Below are positions 568 to 40,218 of a DNA stretch of 64,000 nt, piece by piece (position 1 is the stretch's first letter; every line of letters begins with the position of its first letter). The DNA lies in the NCBI RefSeq assembly GCF_944377805.1, contig NZ_CALWFZ010000001.1:1-64000 (forward strand), in the 5' to 3' direction. The notes under the pieces are model-generated. The model ran no database searches and was not told the origin of the DNA. It was given only the letters and a program-made list of their open reading frames with translations. The DNA comes from an uncultured Mediterraneibacter sp. (lineage in GTDB: Bacteria; Bacillota; Clostridia; Lachnospirales; Lachnospiraceae). The translations under genes were made by a program, and so were the position numbers.

Positions 568-624
568 TGAAACGGACTTCAACATTATGACCATAATCAT
601 CTGGAAGTGCCAAAATACACATAT

Positions 625-692
625 CAGGATTGTAAGCGATCTCCAAGGTCTTACGCAAGCCCGGACTCTGGCTCATCGCTATCGCAAAAAAA
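625..692 (-). repeat. Intergenic repeated element, copy 1
   Basis: A segment of about 68 bases that matches a segment at 38751-38817 in the same orientation. The best-conserved core on the minus strand is GAGCCARAGTCCGGGCTTGC, with a second conserved block, CGCTTRCAATCC, about 15 bases further on. It directly follows the U-run of the purA terminator hairpin. Between the blocks, GTAAG and CTTAC can pair; the core itself can form GAGCC/GGCTT. No known riboswitch or RNA class is recognised. Confidence 0.6.
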
Positions 693-731
693 CGCAGTGC
701 AAAATGCCTGCGCGAGCATTTTTGCACTGCG
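693..731 (-). terminator. purA terminator
   Basis: A stem of about 15 bp (arms 693-707 and 716-731, one extra base in the right arm) is followed on the minus strand by seven T residues (686-692). It lies 22 bases after the purA stop codon. Confidence 0.8.
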
Positions 732-753
732 GTAATTTACATTTTATTTCATT

Positions 754-2034
754 CTATCGGCTGCGGTAGATAATATCATCTCTTCCCGGCCCATTACTGA
801 TCATCGTGATCGGATAGCCGATCTCTCTTTCAATAAACTCGATATAATTACGGCAGTTTTCCGGAAGATCCTCATATTTTCTGATTCCGCGAATGTCTGT
901 CTGCCAGCCCGGAAGTTTCTGGAACACAGGTTTTGCCTTTTCAAGAAGATGAGTCACCGGGAAGTCCTTTGTGATCTCGCCGTTGATCTCATATCCTACA
1001 CATACTGGAATCTCGTCCAGATATCCCAGCACATCAAGGACCGTAAATGCTACATCTGTCGTTCCCTGCATTCTGCACCCGTATTTGGAAGCGACACAGT
1101 CAAACCATCCGACACGTCTCGGTCGACCTGTCGTCGCGCCGTACTCTCCTCCATCTCCGCCGCGGTTTCTTAGCTCATCGGCCTCATCCCCGAATATTTC
1201 ACTTACGAATGCACCTGCTCCAACCGCGCTTGAATATGCTTTACATACCGTAATAACCTGTTTGATCTCATATGGCGGAATCCCTGCTCCGATGGCTCCG
1301 TACGCCGCAAGCGTAGATGAGGAAGTAACCATCGGGTAGATACCGTGGTCGGGATCTTTTAATGAGCCCAGCTGTCCTTCCAGAAGGATGTTTTTCCCTT
1401 CTTTGATGGCATTATAAAGATAGAGCGACACATCGCATACATACGGCTCTACCATCTCTTTGTAGCTCATAAGCTCTTTATATAATTCATCAGGATCAAT
1501 CAATGGTTTATGATACAGGTGTTCCAGCAGTACATTTTTCTGTTCCGCGACGCGTACGACCTTCTCCCTGAGCATCTCCTCATCAAAAAGTTCGCTGACC
1601 TGGAATCCGATCTTAGAATACTTATCAGAATAAAACGGCGCGATTCCGGATTTAGTAGAACCAAAAGACTTGCCTCCCAGTCTCTCTTCCTCATACGCGT
1701 CAAAATTCTTGTGATATGACATCACCATCTGAGCCCTCTCGGATACAAGAATCTTAGGCATCGGAACCCCGCGGTCTACGATCGACTTGATCTCGCCGAA
1801 TAATTTGGGAACATCCAGTGCAACTCCGTTTCCTATCACGCTGGTCGTATGGCCGTAGAAAACGCCGGATGGCAGTGTGTGAAGCGCAAATTTACCATAG
1901 TCGTTTACGATCGTGTGGCCCGCATTCGCTCCACCCTGAAAACGTACGATAATATCAGACTCTTTGCCGAGCATATCGGTAATTTTGCCCTTTCCCTCAT
2001 CGCCCCAGTTTGCACCTACTACTGCTTTTACCAT
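754..2034 (-). CDS. purA: Adenylosuccinate synthetase
   Basis: PurA joins IMP and aspartate using GTP to give adenylosuccinate, the first committed step from IMP to AMP in the cytoplasm. The protein is 426 residues, the normal length. The GTP-loop motif WGDEGKGK is at residues 10-17, with catalytic Asp12, and the conserved GHT is at 39-41, with catalytic His40. Conserved GATTGRPRRVGW follows in the C-terminal half. The start has an AGGAGG site seven bases upstream. A strong promoter lies at 2103-2131 and a hairpin terminator follows the gene, so it appears monocistronic. It is divergent from the gene at 2257. No purine riboswitch or obvious PurR box is seen in the 220-base leader region. Confidence 0.97.
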   Translation of the reverse strand: MVKAVVGANWGDEGKGKITDMLGKESDIIVRFQGGANAGHTIVNDYGKFALHTLPSGVFYGHTTSVIGNGVALDVPKLFGEIKSIVDRGVPMPKILVSERAQMVMSYHKNFDAYEEERLGGKSFGSTKSGIAPFYSDKYSKIGFQVSELFDEEMLREKVVRVAEQKNVLLEHLYHKPLIDPDELYKELMSYKEMVEPYVCDVSLYLYNAIKEGKNILLEGQLGSLKDPDHGIYPMVTSSSTLAAYGAIGAGIPPYEIKQVITVCKAYSSAVGAGAFVSEIFGDEADELRNRGGDGGEYGATTGRPRRVGWFDCVASKYGCRMQGTTDVAFTVLDVLGYLDEIPVCVGYEINGEITKDFPVTHLLEKAKPVFQKLPGWQTDIRGIRKYEDLPENCRNYIEFIEREIGYPITMISNGPGRDDIIYRSR

Positions 2035-6245: not shown

Positions 6246-6318
6246 GCTGTCTTGGCGCAGTCGGTAGCGCGTCGCCTTGGTAAGGCGGAGGTCGGGGGTT
6301 CAAGTCCCCTAGACAGCT
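6246..6318 (+). tRNA. tRNA-Thr (anticodon GGT)
   Basis: A complete cloverleaf: acceptor GCTGTCT/AGACAGC, D arm GCGC stem, anticodon stem TCGCC/GGCGG with loop TTGGTAA (anticodon GGT), and T arm GGGGG/CCCCT with TTCAAGT loop. CCA is not encoded. It is a single tRNA with its own promoter. Confidence 0.95.
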
Positions 6319-6356: not shown

Positions 6357-6395
6357 AGAAGCGCATCAGACAGATTTTTCTCCTGATGCGCTTCT
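6357..6395. terminator. Bidirectional terminator between tRNA-Thr and dtd
   Basis: A 13-bp perfect stem (AGAAGCGCATCAG / CTGATGCGCTTCT) with a 13-base loop. On the plus strand it is followed by CTTTTTG; on the minus strand by TAGCTTTTT. It separates the convergent tRNA-Thr and dtd transcripts. Confidence 0.8.
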
Positions 6396-6472
6396 CTTTT
6401 TGTGATGGCGACAGGCCAACGTCCGGAAGTACCCGAGACCTTGGCCACTGGTTACAGCCATATTCGTTTGTC
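6396..6472 (-). other. Structured 3' segment downstream of dtd
   Basis: Between the dtd stop and the terminator, the minus strand can form nested pairings: ATGGC with GCCAT, GGCCAA with TTGGCC, and an inner GTC...GAC. This amounts to one imperfect long hairpin. It contains no gene with a ribosome site. No known RNA family is recognised. Confidence 0.4.
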
Positions 6473-6917
6473 ACAGTTTTTCTGAGTCAAGCAGTATTGT
6501 AAAGGGCCCGTCATTGATCAGGCTTACTGCCATCTCTGCTCCAAACCTTCCGGTCTGTACCTCTGGCACAGACTTTTTACATTCTCTGATGATATACTCA
6601 TAAAGTTCTTCTGCCTTATCCGGAGCCCCCGCCTCAACAAAACTGGGGCGGTTTCCCTTTTTACAGTTGGCATATAAGGTGAACTGAGACACAAGGAGCA
6701 GGCTCCCTTCCACATCAGCAAGTGAAAGATTTGTCTTTCCGTGCTCATCCTCAAAAATACGCAGTCCCGTCATCTTGCGGATCATCTTATCCGCGGTCTC
6801 CTTTGTGTCGCTGTCTGAAACCCCGATCAGCACAAGGTATCCTTTTTCAATCCGTCCTACAGTCTCTCCCTCTATCCGGACGGAAGCTTCTTTAACCCGC
6901 TGTATCACAAATCTCAT
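6471..6917 (-). CDS. dtd: D-aminoacyl-tRNA deacylase
   Basis: DTD hydrolyses D-amino acids (and mischarged glycine) from tRNA, protecting translation. The protein is 148 residues when started at ATG 6917 (MRFVIQRV), matching the family length; the longer frame adds unrelated residues. The catalytic SQFTLYA motif is at about residues 77-83, and the cross-subunit Gly-cis-Pro motif NDGPFT is at about 136-141. It begins one base after the stop of the CPBP protease gene (TAGCATG), so it is the last gene of the ispF-cysE-cysS-sigH operon or of its distal part. It forms a homodimer in the cytoplasm. Confidence 0.96.
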
Positions 6918-11822: not shown

Positions 11823-12073
11823 AACTCCGCCTCCCGTAAGAGACGAAGTTATATCCGTGGTTCCACTCTATTTTAAAGAATTGCTTCTTCACTCAGAATG
11901 CACATTAACGCATGCAAGACGTACTCCGCTACTTCACTTTTCACGAAATCAGCTCCCGGATGCACTTCACACATTCTCTTCTCAGGAACGCTTCCAGCCG
12001 ATGGCATTCCCTCTCTGTGAGTATCTGAACCCGCTACTCTCTCCGTTCATCGCCTTTTACTTATTCCGACATA
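11823..12073 (-). promoter_or_regulatory. T-box leader (probably tRNA-Cys)
   Basis: The conserved T-box sequence AGAGTGGAACCACGG is at 11855-11869 (minus). It is followed by a terminator stem (arms 11823-11833 and 11840-11850) and a T-run, the standard antiterminator/terminator switch. Upstream, AGAGAGTA, CAGAGAG and an apical hairpin match Stem I features. A TGC triplet in GAAGTGCATCC sits where the specifier is expected and would read cysteine, which fits cysE and cysS downstream. Specifier assignment is by eye. Confidence 0.9.
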
Positions 12074-38701: not shown

Positions 38702-38750
38702 AACTCTCTCCTACGGGTTTTGCAATTAAGCCACAGAAAGCGTCAAAAGT

Positions 38751-38817
38751 CCCGGGATTGCAAGCGGCCGCAGGATCCCGGCAAGCCCGGACTTTGGCTC
38801 GTTGCCGCCGCAAAAAA
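38751..38817 (-). repeat. Intergenic repeated element, copy 2
   Basis: Second copy of the element at 625-692, same strand and same place relative to a hairpin with a T-run. Core GAGCCAAAGTCCGGGCTTGC differs from copy 1 by one base. CCGGGAT and ATCCCGG around the second block form a 7-bp stem; GGC...GCC close the core. Confidence 0.6.
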
Positions 38818-38908
38818 CCGGGTATTCGGCGTTCGTCATACAGATGGAACTGCCTGAGCAGAATGAGCTATCCATCCGGATGATCAGTTTTTCGCCAAAT
38901 CCCGGTTT
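38812..38908 (-). terminator. Long hairpin with T-run downstream of glyA
   Basis: Arms AAACCGGGATTTGGCG (38893-38908) and CGCCGAATACCCGGTTT (38815-38831) pair with one small internal mismatch across a 61-base interior; six T residues follow (38812-38817). It probably ends glyA transcription. The interior holds a smaller inverted repeat. Confidence 0.55.
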
Positions 38909-38931: not shown

Positions 38932-40167
38932 TTAACACAGAGGATATTTCTTTGTGAGTTCTCCTGCCATTTCTCTTGCTTTTTCTACGTTGTCCCCACT
39001 CTCGATAACCATAGCGATGATCTCGGCAATCCTGTCCATGTCTGTCTCGACCATCCCTCTCGTCGTCACCGCGGGAGTTCCAAGTCTCACGCCGCTTGTG
39101 ACAAACGGTGACCTGGGATCATTGGGGATCGTATTTTTATTACAGGTAATATGGGCATCATCCAGACGCTTCTCCAGTTCTTTCCCGCTGACGTCTTTTC
39201 CTGTCAGATCCACAAGCATCAGGTGATTATCCGTATCGCCTGACACGATCCTGACCCCGCGCTTTTTCAGCCCCTCGCAGAGCGCTTTCGCATTCTTTAC
39301 TACCTGTTTTTGATACTCCTTGAATTCCGGCGTAAGAGCCTCTTTAAAGCACACTGCTTTTGCGGCGATCACATGCATCAGAGGTCCTCCCTGAATGCCG
39401 GGGAATACCGCTTTGTTAAAATTAAACTTCTCGTTGATCTCATTGCTGGAGAGAATCATGCCGCCTCTTGGCCCCCTCAGTGTCTTGTGAGTCGTTGTCG
39501 TCGTCACATGCGCGTAGGGGATCGGGCTCGGATGAAGTCCTGCTGCCACCAGGCCGGCGATATGAGCCATATCTACCATGAGGTATGCTCCGACTTCGTC
39601 CGCGATCTCGCGGAAACGCTTGAAATCAATGGTTCTGGCATAGGCGCTTGCCCCGGCTACGATCAATTTCGGTCTGCATTCCCTGGCGATCCTGAGCACT
39701 TCGCCATAGTCGATCACACCCTCGTCATTGACGCCATAAGGTACGACATGGAAGTATTTTCCGGACATATTAACGGGAGAGCCGTGAGTCAGATGTCCGC
39801 CGTGATCCAGATTCATTCCCATATAAGTGTCGCCCGGCTCAAGCATCGCAAAGAATACTGCCATGTTTGCCTGAGCGCCTGAATGCGGCTGTACATTGAC
39901 ATATTCACACCCAAACAGCTCTTTAGCCCGCTCTCTCGCCACATCCTCCACCACATCGACGCACTGGCATCCGCCATAGTATCTTCTGCCCGGATACCCC
40001 TCTGCGTATTTGTTTGTCAGAGGGCTTCCCATCGCTGCCATTACCGCTTTGCTCACCCAGTTCTCGGATGCAATCAGTTCGATGTGGGAATTCTGCCTCT
40101 CCATCTCAGCTTTAATCGCGTCGGCAATCCGGGAGTCCGTTGTCATGATCTCATCGAAGTCGTACAT
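38932..40167 (-). CDS. glyA: Serine hydroxymethyltransferase
   Basis: GlyA makes glycine and methylene-tetrahydrofolate from serine, a PLP enzyme. 411 residues from ATG 40167 (MYDFDEIM), nine bases after GGAGG; an earlier ATG at 40173 is only three bases from it. PLP lysine is in [15 protein letters not shown] at about residue 225; [13 protein letters not shown] near 52 is the folate/PLP region. Its promoter lies at 40219-40248. It is followed by a structured 3' segment. Confidence 0.97.
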
Positions 40168-40218
40168 TCTCATTGTCCTCCATAATTATTAATATTTGCA
40201 TTGTCATGCTTATGGGTC

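Follow-up and report, generated by a model that had tools for sequence, protein, structure and literature searches.

Directly behind the terminator of purA lies a short intergenic segment that recurs at a second site in the window (the whole stretch of 64,000 nucleotides that was analysed), and the question is what kind of sequence this is and how it came to lie there. The initial annotation had described two copies in the same orientation, sharing a 20-base core and a second block. This pair is real. The core, GCAAGCCCGGACTYTGGCTC, was found at 655-674 and 38781-38800 in the same orientation, and both copies also contain the second block, which on the minus strand reads CGCTTRCAATCC. Shuffled sequence was expected to yield 0.01 matches to the core with at most 3 mismatches, and none of 100 shuffles reached two. 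The extent of 625-692 proposed for the first copy stood only in part: the repeat is there, but the element itself occupies 595-685 on the minus strand, reaching about 30 nt beyond the reported segment. Copy 1 takes up 91 nt of the minus strand, from 685, next to the T-run of the purA terminator, to about 595. The typical element is about 90 nt long, contains two unlike hairpins (A and B) and is read on the strand of the upstream gene.

A third copy, absent from the initial annotation, was found in the window by a scan with a covariance model (R1) built from 25 copies of the window's genome. This genome is labelled G000; G-numbers denote genomes and L-numbers the loci compared. The nhmmer match of the third copy (locus L219) covers element positions 1-58 only. 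The genes upstream of copies 1 and 2 are presumably purA, as named in the initial annotation, and glyA. The features of the window are given below, with a slash marking a junction.

595..685, minus strand: copy 1, full length, 91 nt, behind purA (R1 covariance-model match at 594-693, minus strand, 96.3 bits)
686..692, minus strand: T-run of the purA terminator, the insertion target, with left junction TTTTTTT/GCG (from the sequence; in near relatives the T-run is followed by GTCATA within a few bases)
693..731, minus strand: hairpin of the purA terminator, part of purA and not of the element (inverted repeat 686-704 / 720-738)
754..2034, minus strand: presumed purA (adenylosuccinate synthetase), upstream gene of copy 1 (ORF of 426 aa, with matches in 40 of 41 genus genomes)
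6246-6318: tRNA upstream of the terminator of copy 3 (Rfam)
6357..6401, plus strand: terminator hairpin and T-run receiving copy 3 (from the sequence, by eye)
6402..6459, plus strand: copy 3, degraded, without hairpin B, behind the tRNA gene and its terminator (R1 match at 6394-6501, plus strand, 37.9 bits, E 1.2e-6)
38729..38811, minus strand, 3' end approximate: copy 2, diverged and missing part of hairpin B; its neighbours are glyA and a gene resembling phenylacetate-CoA ligase (R1 match at 38727-38819, minus strand, 78.6 bits)
38812..38817, minus strand: T-run before copy 2 (from the sequence)
38932..40173, minus strand: presumed glyA (serine hydroxymethyltransferase), upstream gene of copy 2 (ORF of 413 aa, with matches in 37 of 41 genus genomes)

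Read the same way as the upstream gene, the consensus is TTTTTT/GTGACGGCGACGAGCCAAAGTCCGGGCTTGCCCGAGACCTTGGCGACCGCTTACAATCCCGGAATGTGCCTTTTGGCACTTCCGGTGATT/. Its 5′ part consists of the T-run, then GY, three lineage-dependent bases and GGCGACGA. Hairpin A follows (GCCAAAGTC CGGG CTTG CCCG A GAC C TTGGC), then GACCGCTTACAATC, then hairpin B (CCGGAA T GTGCC TTTT GGCAC TTCCGG) and the 3′ end TGATT/. The consensus was predicted to fold at -46.6 kcal/mol (z -5.8) into an outer stem and the two hairpins. The outer stem takes in the last T of the target, which pairs with TACAA of the element, and among 20 lineage sequences its pairs 11-65 and 14-64 were most often G-U. A G(CUUG)C loop and a tandem G-A beside hairpin A were noted by eye. 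At the right end, AATC precedes hairpin B and GATT follows it, and the three counted pairs between them form in 19, 20 and 19 of the 20 lineage sequences. Guide bases for the T-run were not seen at the foot of hairpin A, at the left end. Terminal inverted repeats are absent from the consensus as judged by eye, the 5′ end GTGACGGCGACGAGCC being unlike the reverse complement of the 3′ end, AATCACCGGAAGTGCC. The local stems proposed earlier, GTAAG/CTTAC and CCGGGAT/ATCCCGG, are each private to one copy and are not the conserved structure of the consensus and the lineages.

The initial annotation had supposed that similar stretches recur between genes in Lachnospiraceae and had proposed a search of the whole genome and its relatives. 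This search recovered further copies in G000, in the genus and in the family, and the recurrence was borne out by matches in 22 of 37 genus genomes and 20 of 397 family genomes. The model search of G000 gave 62 matches at E≤1, of which 58 remained at E≤0.01 and 36 at E≤1e-13; no other of the 61 genomes searched had as many. The 22 matching genomes (E≤0.01) all lay among the 37 of the genus, own genome included, with 0 to 58 matches each; the 24 genomes representing other families of the order gave no match in the same search under stricter filters. The exact 27-base core was found in 70 stretches, mostly from records titled Mediterraneibacter or close relatives such as Mordavella, [Ruminococcus] torques and Faecalimonas. 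The 20 family genomes, in other Lachnospiraceae, carried diverged versions (E≤1e-4, 10 candidates scored per genome). The family-wide search identified a second version with another hairpin B, TTTACGCGAGCAACGAGCC...GGCGACTGCCGCGATAACTTGAG...CATAGTT, and the version in G288 has a different hairpin A. Plasmids contained no match to either version, and two exact patterns gave no matches in viral contigs. In a phage collection, 5 and 10 records matched the two versions, all of them unannotated fecal contigs (MT83xxxx). Copies in these records (MT835472, MT835784, MT836568, MT837115 and others) were up to 98.9% identical, and they may lie in phage or in host sequence.

Several other arrangements were recorded among these loci. 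Hairpin B alone (25 bases, 0-1 mismatch) occurred at three G000 loci, L321 (C24:984-1008), L322 (C25:12571-12595) and L330 (C16:39692-39716), and at two of the three it was followed by a T-rich, terminator-like stretch. Another dispersed repeat, TGCGGTTTTACGAATGGCGCGGGCTGAACTGTTAC, was present at L067, L102, L120, L355 and L365, with AAAACAG in the upstream part in several; at L067 it lay directly behind a copy of the element. At L090 (G020) a full copy ran straight into TTTTTTGTACAGGCGA, which repeats the element's initial ten bases after another T-run and looks like the trace of a further, very short insertion.

The sequence preceding the copies was a terminator hairpin that differed from copy to copy, followed by a T-run, and the copies lay at the 3′ end of these T-runs in one orientation. 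A link with terminators had been suggested for the purA copy, and a position test established it more widely. Of 167 full copies, 136 satisfied a strict terminator criterion (at least 5 T in 9 bases, plus a strong stem), compared with 2 of 240 TTTG and 17 of 240 TTTT control positions from the same loci; since the 167 were drawn from the best model matches and the exact-core matches, well-kept copies are over-represented among them. Of the 31 that failed, a number had a long-loop hairpin by eye and others had none. The left junction was TTT in 149 of the 167, and the last four bases of the element were GATT in 131. By a rough count based on mechanical ORFs, the upstream neighbour of these copies was on the same strand in 77 cases, on the opposite strand in 17, and far or missing in 73. 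Mechanical ORFs of 120 aa or longer enclosed 37 of the 167; these are presumably shadow ORFs.

Filled and empty sites were compared directly. The purA site is filled in G000; purA matched in 40 genomes, 30 loci were fetched, and the 29 others lacked the element. Twenty-eight of the 29 aligned over the downstream flank, and the remaining one (G029) had a different flank and showed no element within 330 bases. In close relatives the hairpin and T-run are followed by GTCATA, and in G000 GTCATA comes after the element. A second clean pair was found in G026 (filled) and G035 (empty), with the insertion again at the end of the T-run. These two comparisons show that the element was gained by insertion. 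Of the 29 other loci fetched for glyA, 12 could be aligned across the site, and the element was absent from all 12. No clear target duplication was seen at purA or in the G026/G035 pair, though these are comparisons between different species, so a shift or duplication of 1-3 bases is possible. Taken as a whole, the element is almost certainly mobile and targets the T-runs of terminators, where landing probably does little harm.

The covariation analysis proposed in the initial annotation gave a strong signal between lineages. In a set of 20 sequences, to which each genome contributed one or two, 94.7% of cells were paired and 16 of 36 pairs had changed on both sides, a count reached in none of 500 shuffles. 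The second version has the same topology; in 12 sequences (11 distinct), 6 of 34 pairs had changed on both sides (5/500 shuffles), in 12 cells (0/500 shuffles), and the figure for further pair types was 19/500. Within G000 the picture was different. Among its 36 full copies 86.7% of cells were paired, compared with 86.4% in shuffles, and 91 of 500 shuffles reached this value; change rates per copy were 0.116 at paired and 0.143 at unpaired positions. The fold is thus held by covariation between lineages but not among the landed copies of G000. Since pairs covary between lineages but decay within G000, structure matters to what spreads and not to the copies that have landed. This pattern fits a mobile element recognised by its structure rather than an RNA selected by the host.

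Recent and repeated movement was also considered. Some genomes contain very young sets of copies; one of 25 copies in M. glycyrrhizinilyticus BSD2780061687b had a median identity of 97.8% to its own consensus, a value that leans towards similarity because most of these copies were fetched by an exact 27-base match. In all 15 orthologous-site pairs, the two copies resembled each other less than they did the best copy within the same genome, where there was one. This suggests repeated landing at the same terminators, although comparing the best of many with a single copy is biased. Shortened copies were of two kinds. Eight G000 copies lacked hairpin A, deleted between flanking GGCGAC repeats with a loss of about 26 bases; a reading of these as copies of the 3′ half only was ruled out by their full left end. 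In 13 copies, 10 of them in G000, the nhmmer match ended before hairpin B (contig-cut and version-2 loci left out).

What moves the element is less clear than that it moves. The best explanation, which we hold with moderate confidence, is a non-autonomous IS200/IS605-like element of about 90 nt mobilised in trans by a Y1 transposase. The Y1 (HUH) transposase of an IS200-type insertion sequence would move it in trans as single-stranded DNA, gripping the hairpins and cutting at the T-run and at GATT, and it would prefer a T-run just behind a hairpin. Landing after a terminator would spare coding and regulatory sequence, so that the cost would be low, and decay would follow. IS200/IS605 elements have neither terminal inverted repeats nor target duplication, according to PMC7290912. 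Unlike hairpins near both ends, a single orientation and the lack of a clear duplication are IS200/IS605-like traits (PMC7290912, PMC6006769). With this group and its palindrome-associated non-autonomous derivatives (PATEs) the element shares hairpins near both ends, the absence of terminal inverted repeats and of a clear target duplication, one orientation, and insertion 3′ of a fixed short sequence. Unlike IS200/IS605 it has no transposase, and beyond the termini no likeness to IS200 ends was noticed; a terminator requirement is not mentioned in the available parts of the same two sources.

IS200 elements of the same bacterial family share with the element both the type of site and the terminal bases, TT/GT ... 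GATT/. In G034, the three loci fetched of four Y1 matches were near-identical IS200 copies behind a hairpin and T-run, and in G001 all five fetched of nine matches lay at such sites (both by eye). In these copies tnpA reads away from the terminator; the T-run of L440 is short. Further IS200 types were seen by eye behind terminators, one each, in G011, G012, G029, G239, G288 and G166. This choice of site may be a general trait of the IS200 group in Lachnospiraceae. One type, in G011 and G012, runs from TT/GTA to TGATT/, with ends as in the element, and the IS200 of G288 also ends in TGATT/. A transposase group with GATT ends was present in 99 of 397 family genomes. Thirty of its loci were fetched; in six the left end could be placed together with the preceding sequence, and in each of the six a hairpin and T-run stood no more than a few bases away. 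The right end was placed in 27 of the 30 as GATT (17) or GACT (10), which is weaker evidence than the G011/G012 comparison because these ends were set by alignment to a GATT-ending query.

By eye, IS200-type elements began immediately behind terminator T-runs, or a few bases away from them, and ran in the same direction at L435-L442, L451, L174, L167, L458, L459, L461, L468-L470, L473, L474 and L477. Other Y1 types were not seen behind terminators by eye (L165, L166, L168, L176-L178, L180, L445, L443, L444, L446-L448, L460).

The search for a partner was negative. None of the 93 Y1 loci scanned had the hairpins of the element as its own ends. Pieces of the element occurred at two of them (L175 and L436), in both cases as separate copies beside an IS: at L175 an IS200 beside a separate version-2 copy, and at L436 a G034 IS200 copy exactly between the T-run and a degraded copy of the element. 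A scan of 45 loci gave two partial matches, at L175 and at L170, of which the one at L170 (19 of 26 bases) was taken as chance. Y1 was present in 36 of 41 genus genomes and in 6 of 11 chosen carriers. No Y1_Tnp match was found in G000 (92.6% complete), despite its having the highest element count, and none was found in G035 (15 copies), in G016 (4 copies), in G385 (near-identical copies, 99% complete) or in G085, G230, G250 and G431. The association with the GATT-type transposase was weak: 8 of the 20 genomes that carry the element have it, as do 91 of the 377 that do not (Fisher p 0.12), a comparison that takes both 397-genome sets as identical and for which 10 candidates per genome were scored for carriers. 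By eye, the presence of neither Y1 transposase nor group II maturase tracked copy number. The G-U pairs 11-65 and 14-64 of the outer stem also count against an IS200 mover, being better suited to RNA than to DNA. Our confidence in the mechanism is held to this level by the lack of Y1 in high-copy genomes, the weak association, the lack of a partner and of a left guide, and the G-U pairs. Because no partner with the same hairpins and no Y1 gene in G000 were detected, the mechanism is one that we infer.

Those G-U pairs bear on the first of the alternatives, a SINE-like retroelement, in which a structured RNA of about 90 nt would be reverse-transcribed into the T-run behind a terminator, in trans, for example by the reverse transcriptase of a group IIC intron. 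Group IIC introns insert behind terminators in the same orientation. The element shares with them this target and orientation, the sense insertion directly behind terminator hairpins; the G-U pairs, the G(CUUG)C loop and the tandem G-A are RNA-like, and the pairing of the last T of the target with TACAA is compatible with such a route. The 13 copies that keep the T-run end and stop before hairpin B are what copying anchored on the T-run could give, but they may have arisen by later deletion, and in some (L007, for example) a trace of the 3′ end survives. The element differs from group IIC introns in that no group II domain was found in it and it has no room for a reverse transcriptase gene, and Rfam gave no group II match on it. 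A GIIM maturase domain was found in 12 of 41 genus genomes, and none was detected in the high-copy genomes G012, G034 and G022. On this evidence we regard the retroelement as unlikely. If it were true, the element would be a bacterial counterpart of a SINE, spread by RNA and with terminators as its target.

A structure useful to the host, such as a 3′-end RNA or a back-up terminator under selection behind many genes, would account for the consistent position behind terminators and for the stability of the predicted fold (-46.6 kcal/mol, z -5.8), and hairpin B standing alone at three G000 loci, two of them before a T-rich stretch, agrees with it. Yet G000 copies keep their pairs no better than shuffles (rates of 0.116 against 0.143), the number of copies in a single genus varies from 0 to 58, and the orthologous purA and glyA sites lack the element wherever they can be compared. 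A host function is therefore quite unlikely.

We thought it equally improbable that the element is a REP-type palindrome spread by a RAYT, here a Y1 protein of about 275 aa in many members of the genus. REPs and REPINs are likewise small, hairpin-bearing, intergenic and non-autonomous, with tens of copies and a lineage-dependent distribution; the element also has GT at its 5′ end, and many genus genomes encode a Y1 protein of roughly 245-310 aa. However, the element combines two unlike hairpins in about 90 nt with a terminator site, has no GTAG/GTGG tag at the foot of a hairpin, and was not found near the scanned loci of the RAYT-like gene, whose flanks share a different repeat, GGGACAGGGCAAAATTCAATTT. 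The gene occurs in G006, G014 and G030-G032, in which no copy of the element was found, and it was not detected in G000. The repeat GGGACAGGGCAAAATTCAATTT, which flanks the gene of about 275 aa among L183-L194 in genus genomes, is unrelated to the element.

A small protein gene reading RFFA-x-A-x-SQSPGL, a frame free of stops in 111 of 167 copies, has next to no probability and was rejected on frame changes and stops: 56 of the 167 copies from all genomes and 8 of 36 G000 copies contain stops, in 11 of the 36 full G000 copies the length departs from 90 nt by a non-multiple of three, the 8 G000 copies without hairpin A have lost about 26 bases, and in the copies read nothing between terminator and element was noticed that resembles a start codon preceded by a ribosome site. 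The shared frame looks like a by-product of shared DNA, and the initial preference for an RNA or DNA element over a protein is upheld by these frame-breaking lengths and stops.

Known families were also searched for a name. The impression that no named RNA class fits agreed with Rfam 15, which gave no match to the element at the gathering score in the window or at L416, L421 and L433 (version-2/3 loci). With one copy as query at E≤10, nothing that fits and no group II match was returned. An ordinary T-box leader was identified elsewhere in the window by Rfam, at 11836-12059 on the minus strand. The pneumococcal BOX and RUP repeats are, like the element, small dispersed intergenic repeats of Gram-positive bacteria. 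RUP has terminal inverted repeats and target duplication, neither of which was seen in the element. Searches of a library of open-licence papers gave no description of the element.

We suggest that it is a miniature IS200-like element that targets the T-runs of terminators, with its membership of that group unproven because no partner transposase was found. This explains a repeat, so far without a name, that reaches tens of copies per genome in some common gut bacteria. It also matters for annotation, as copies of the element yield false short reading frames and false RNA candidates. For the biology of these bacteria, the finding points to a ‘safe haven’ for the spread of small DNA parasites, just behind a terminator and facing the same way as the gene. 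As several IS200-type sequences of the same family lie at such sites, the possible recognition of the terminator, as hairpin plus T-run, by a single-strand transposase becomes testable.
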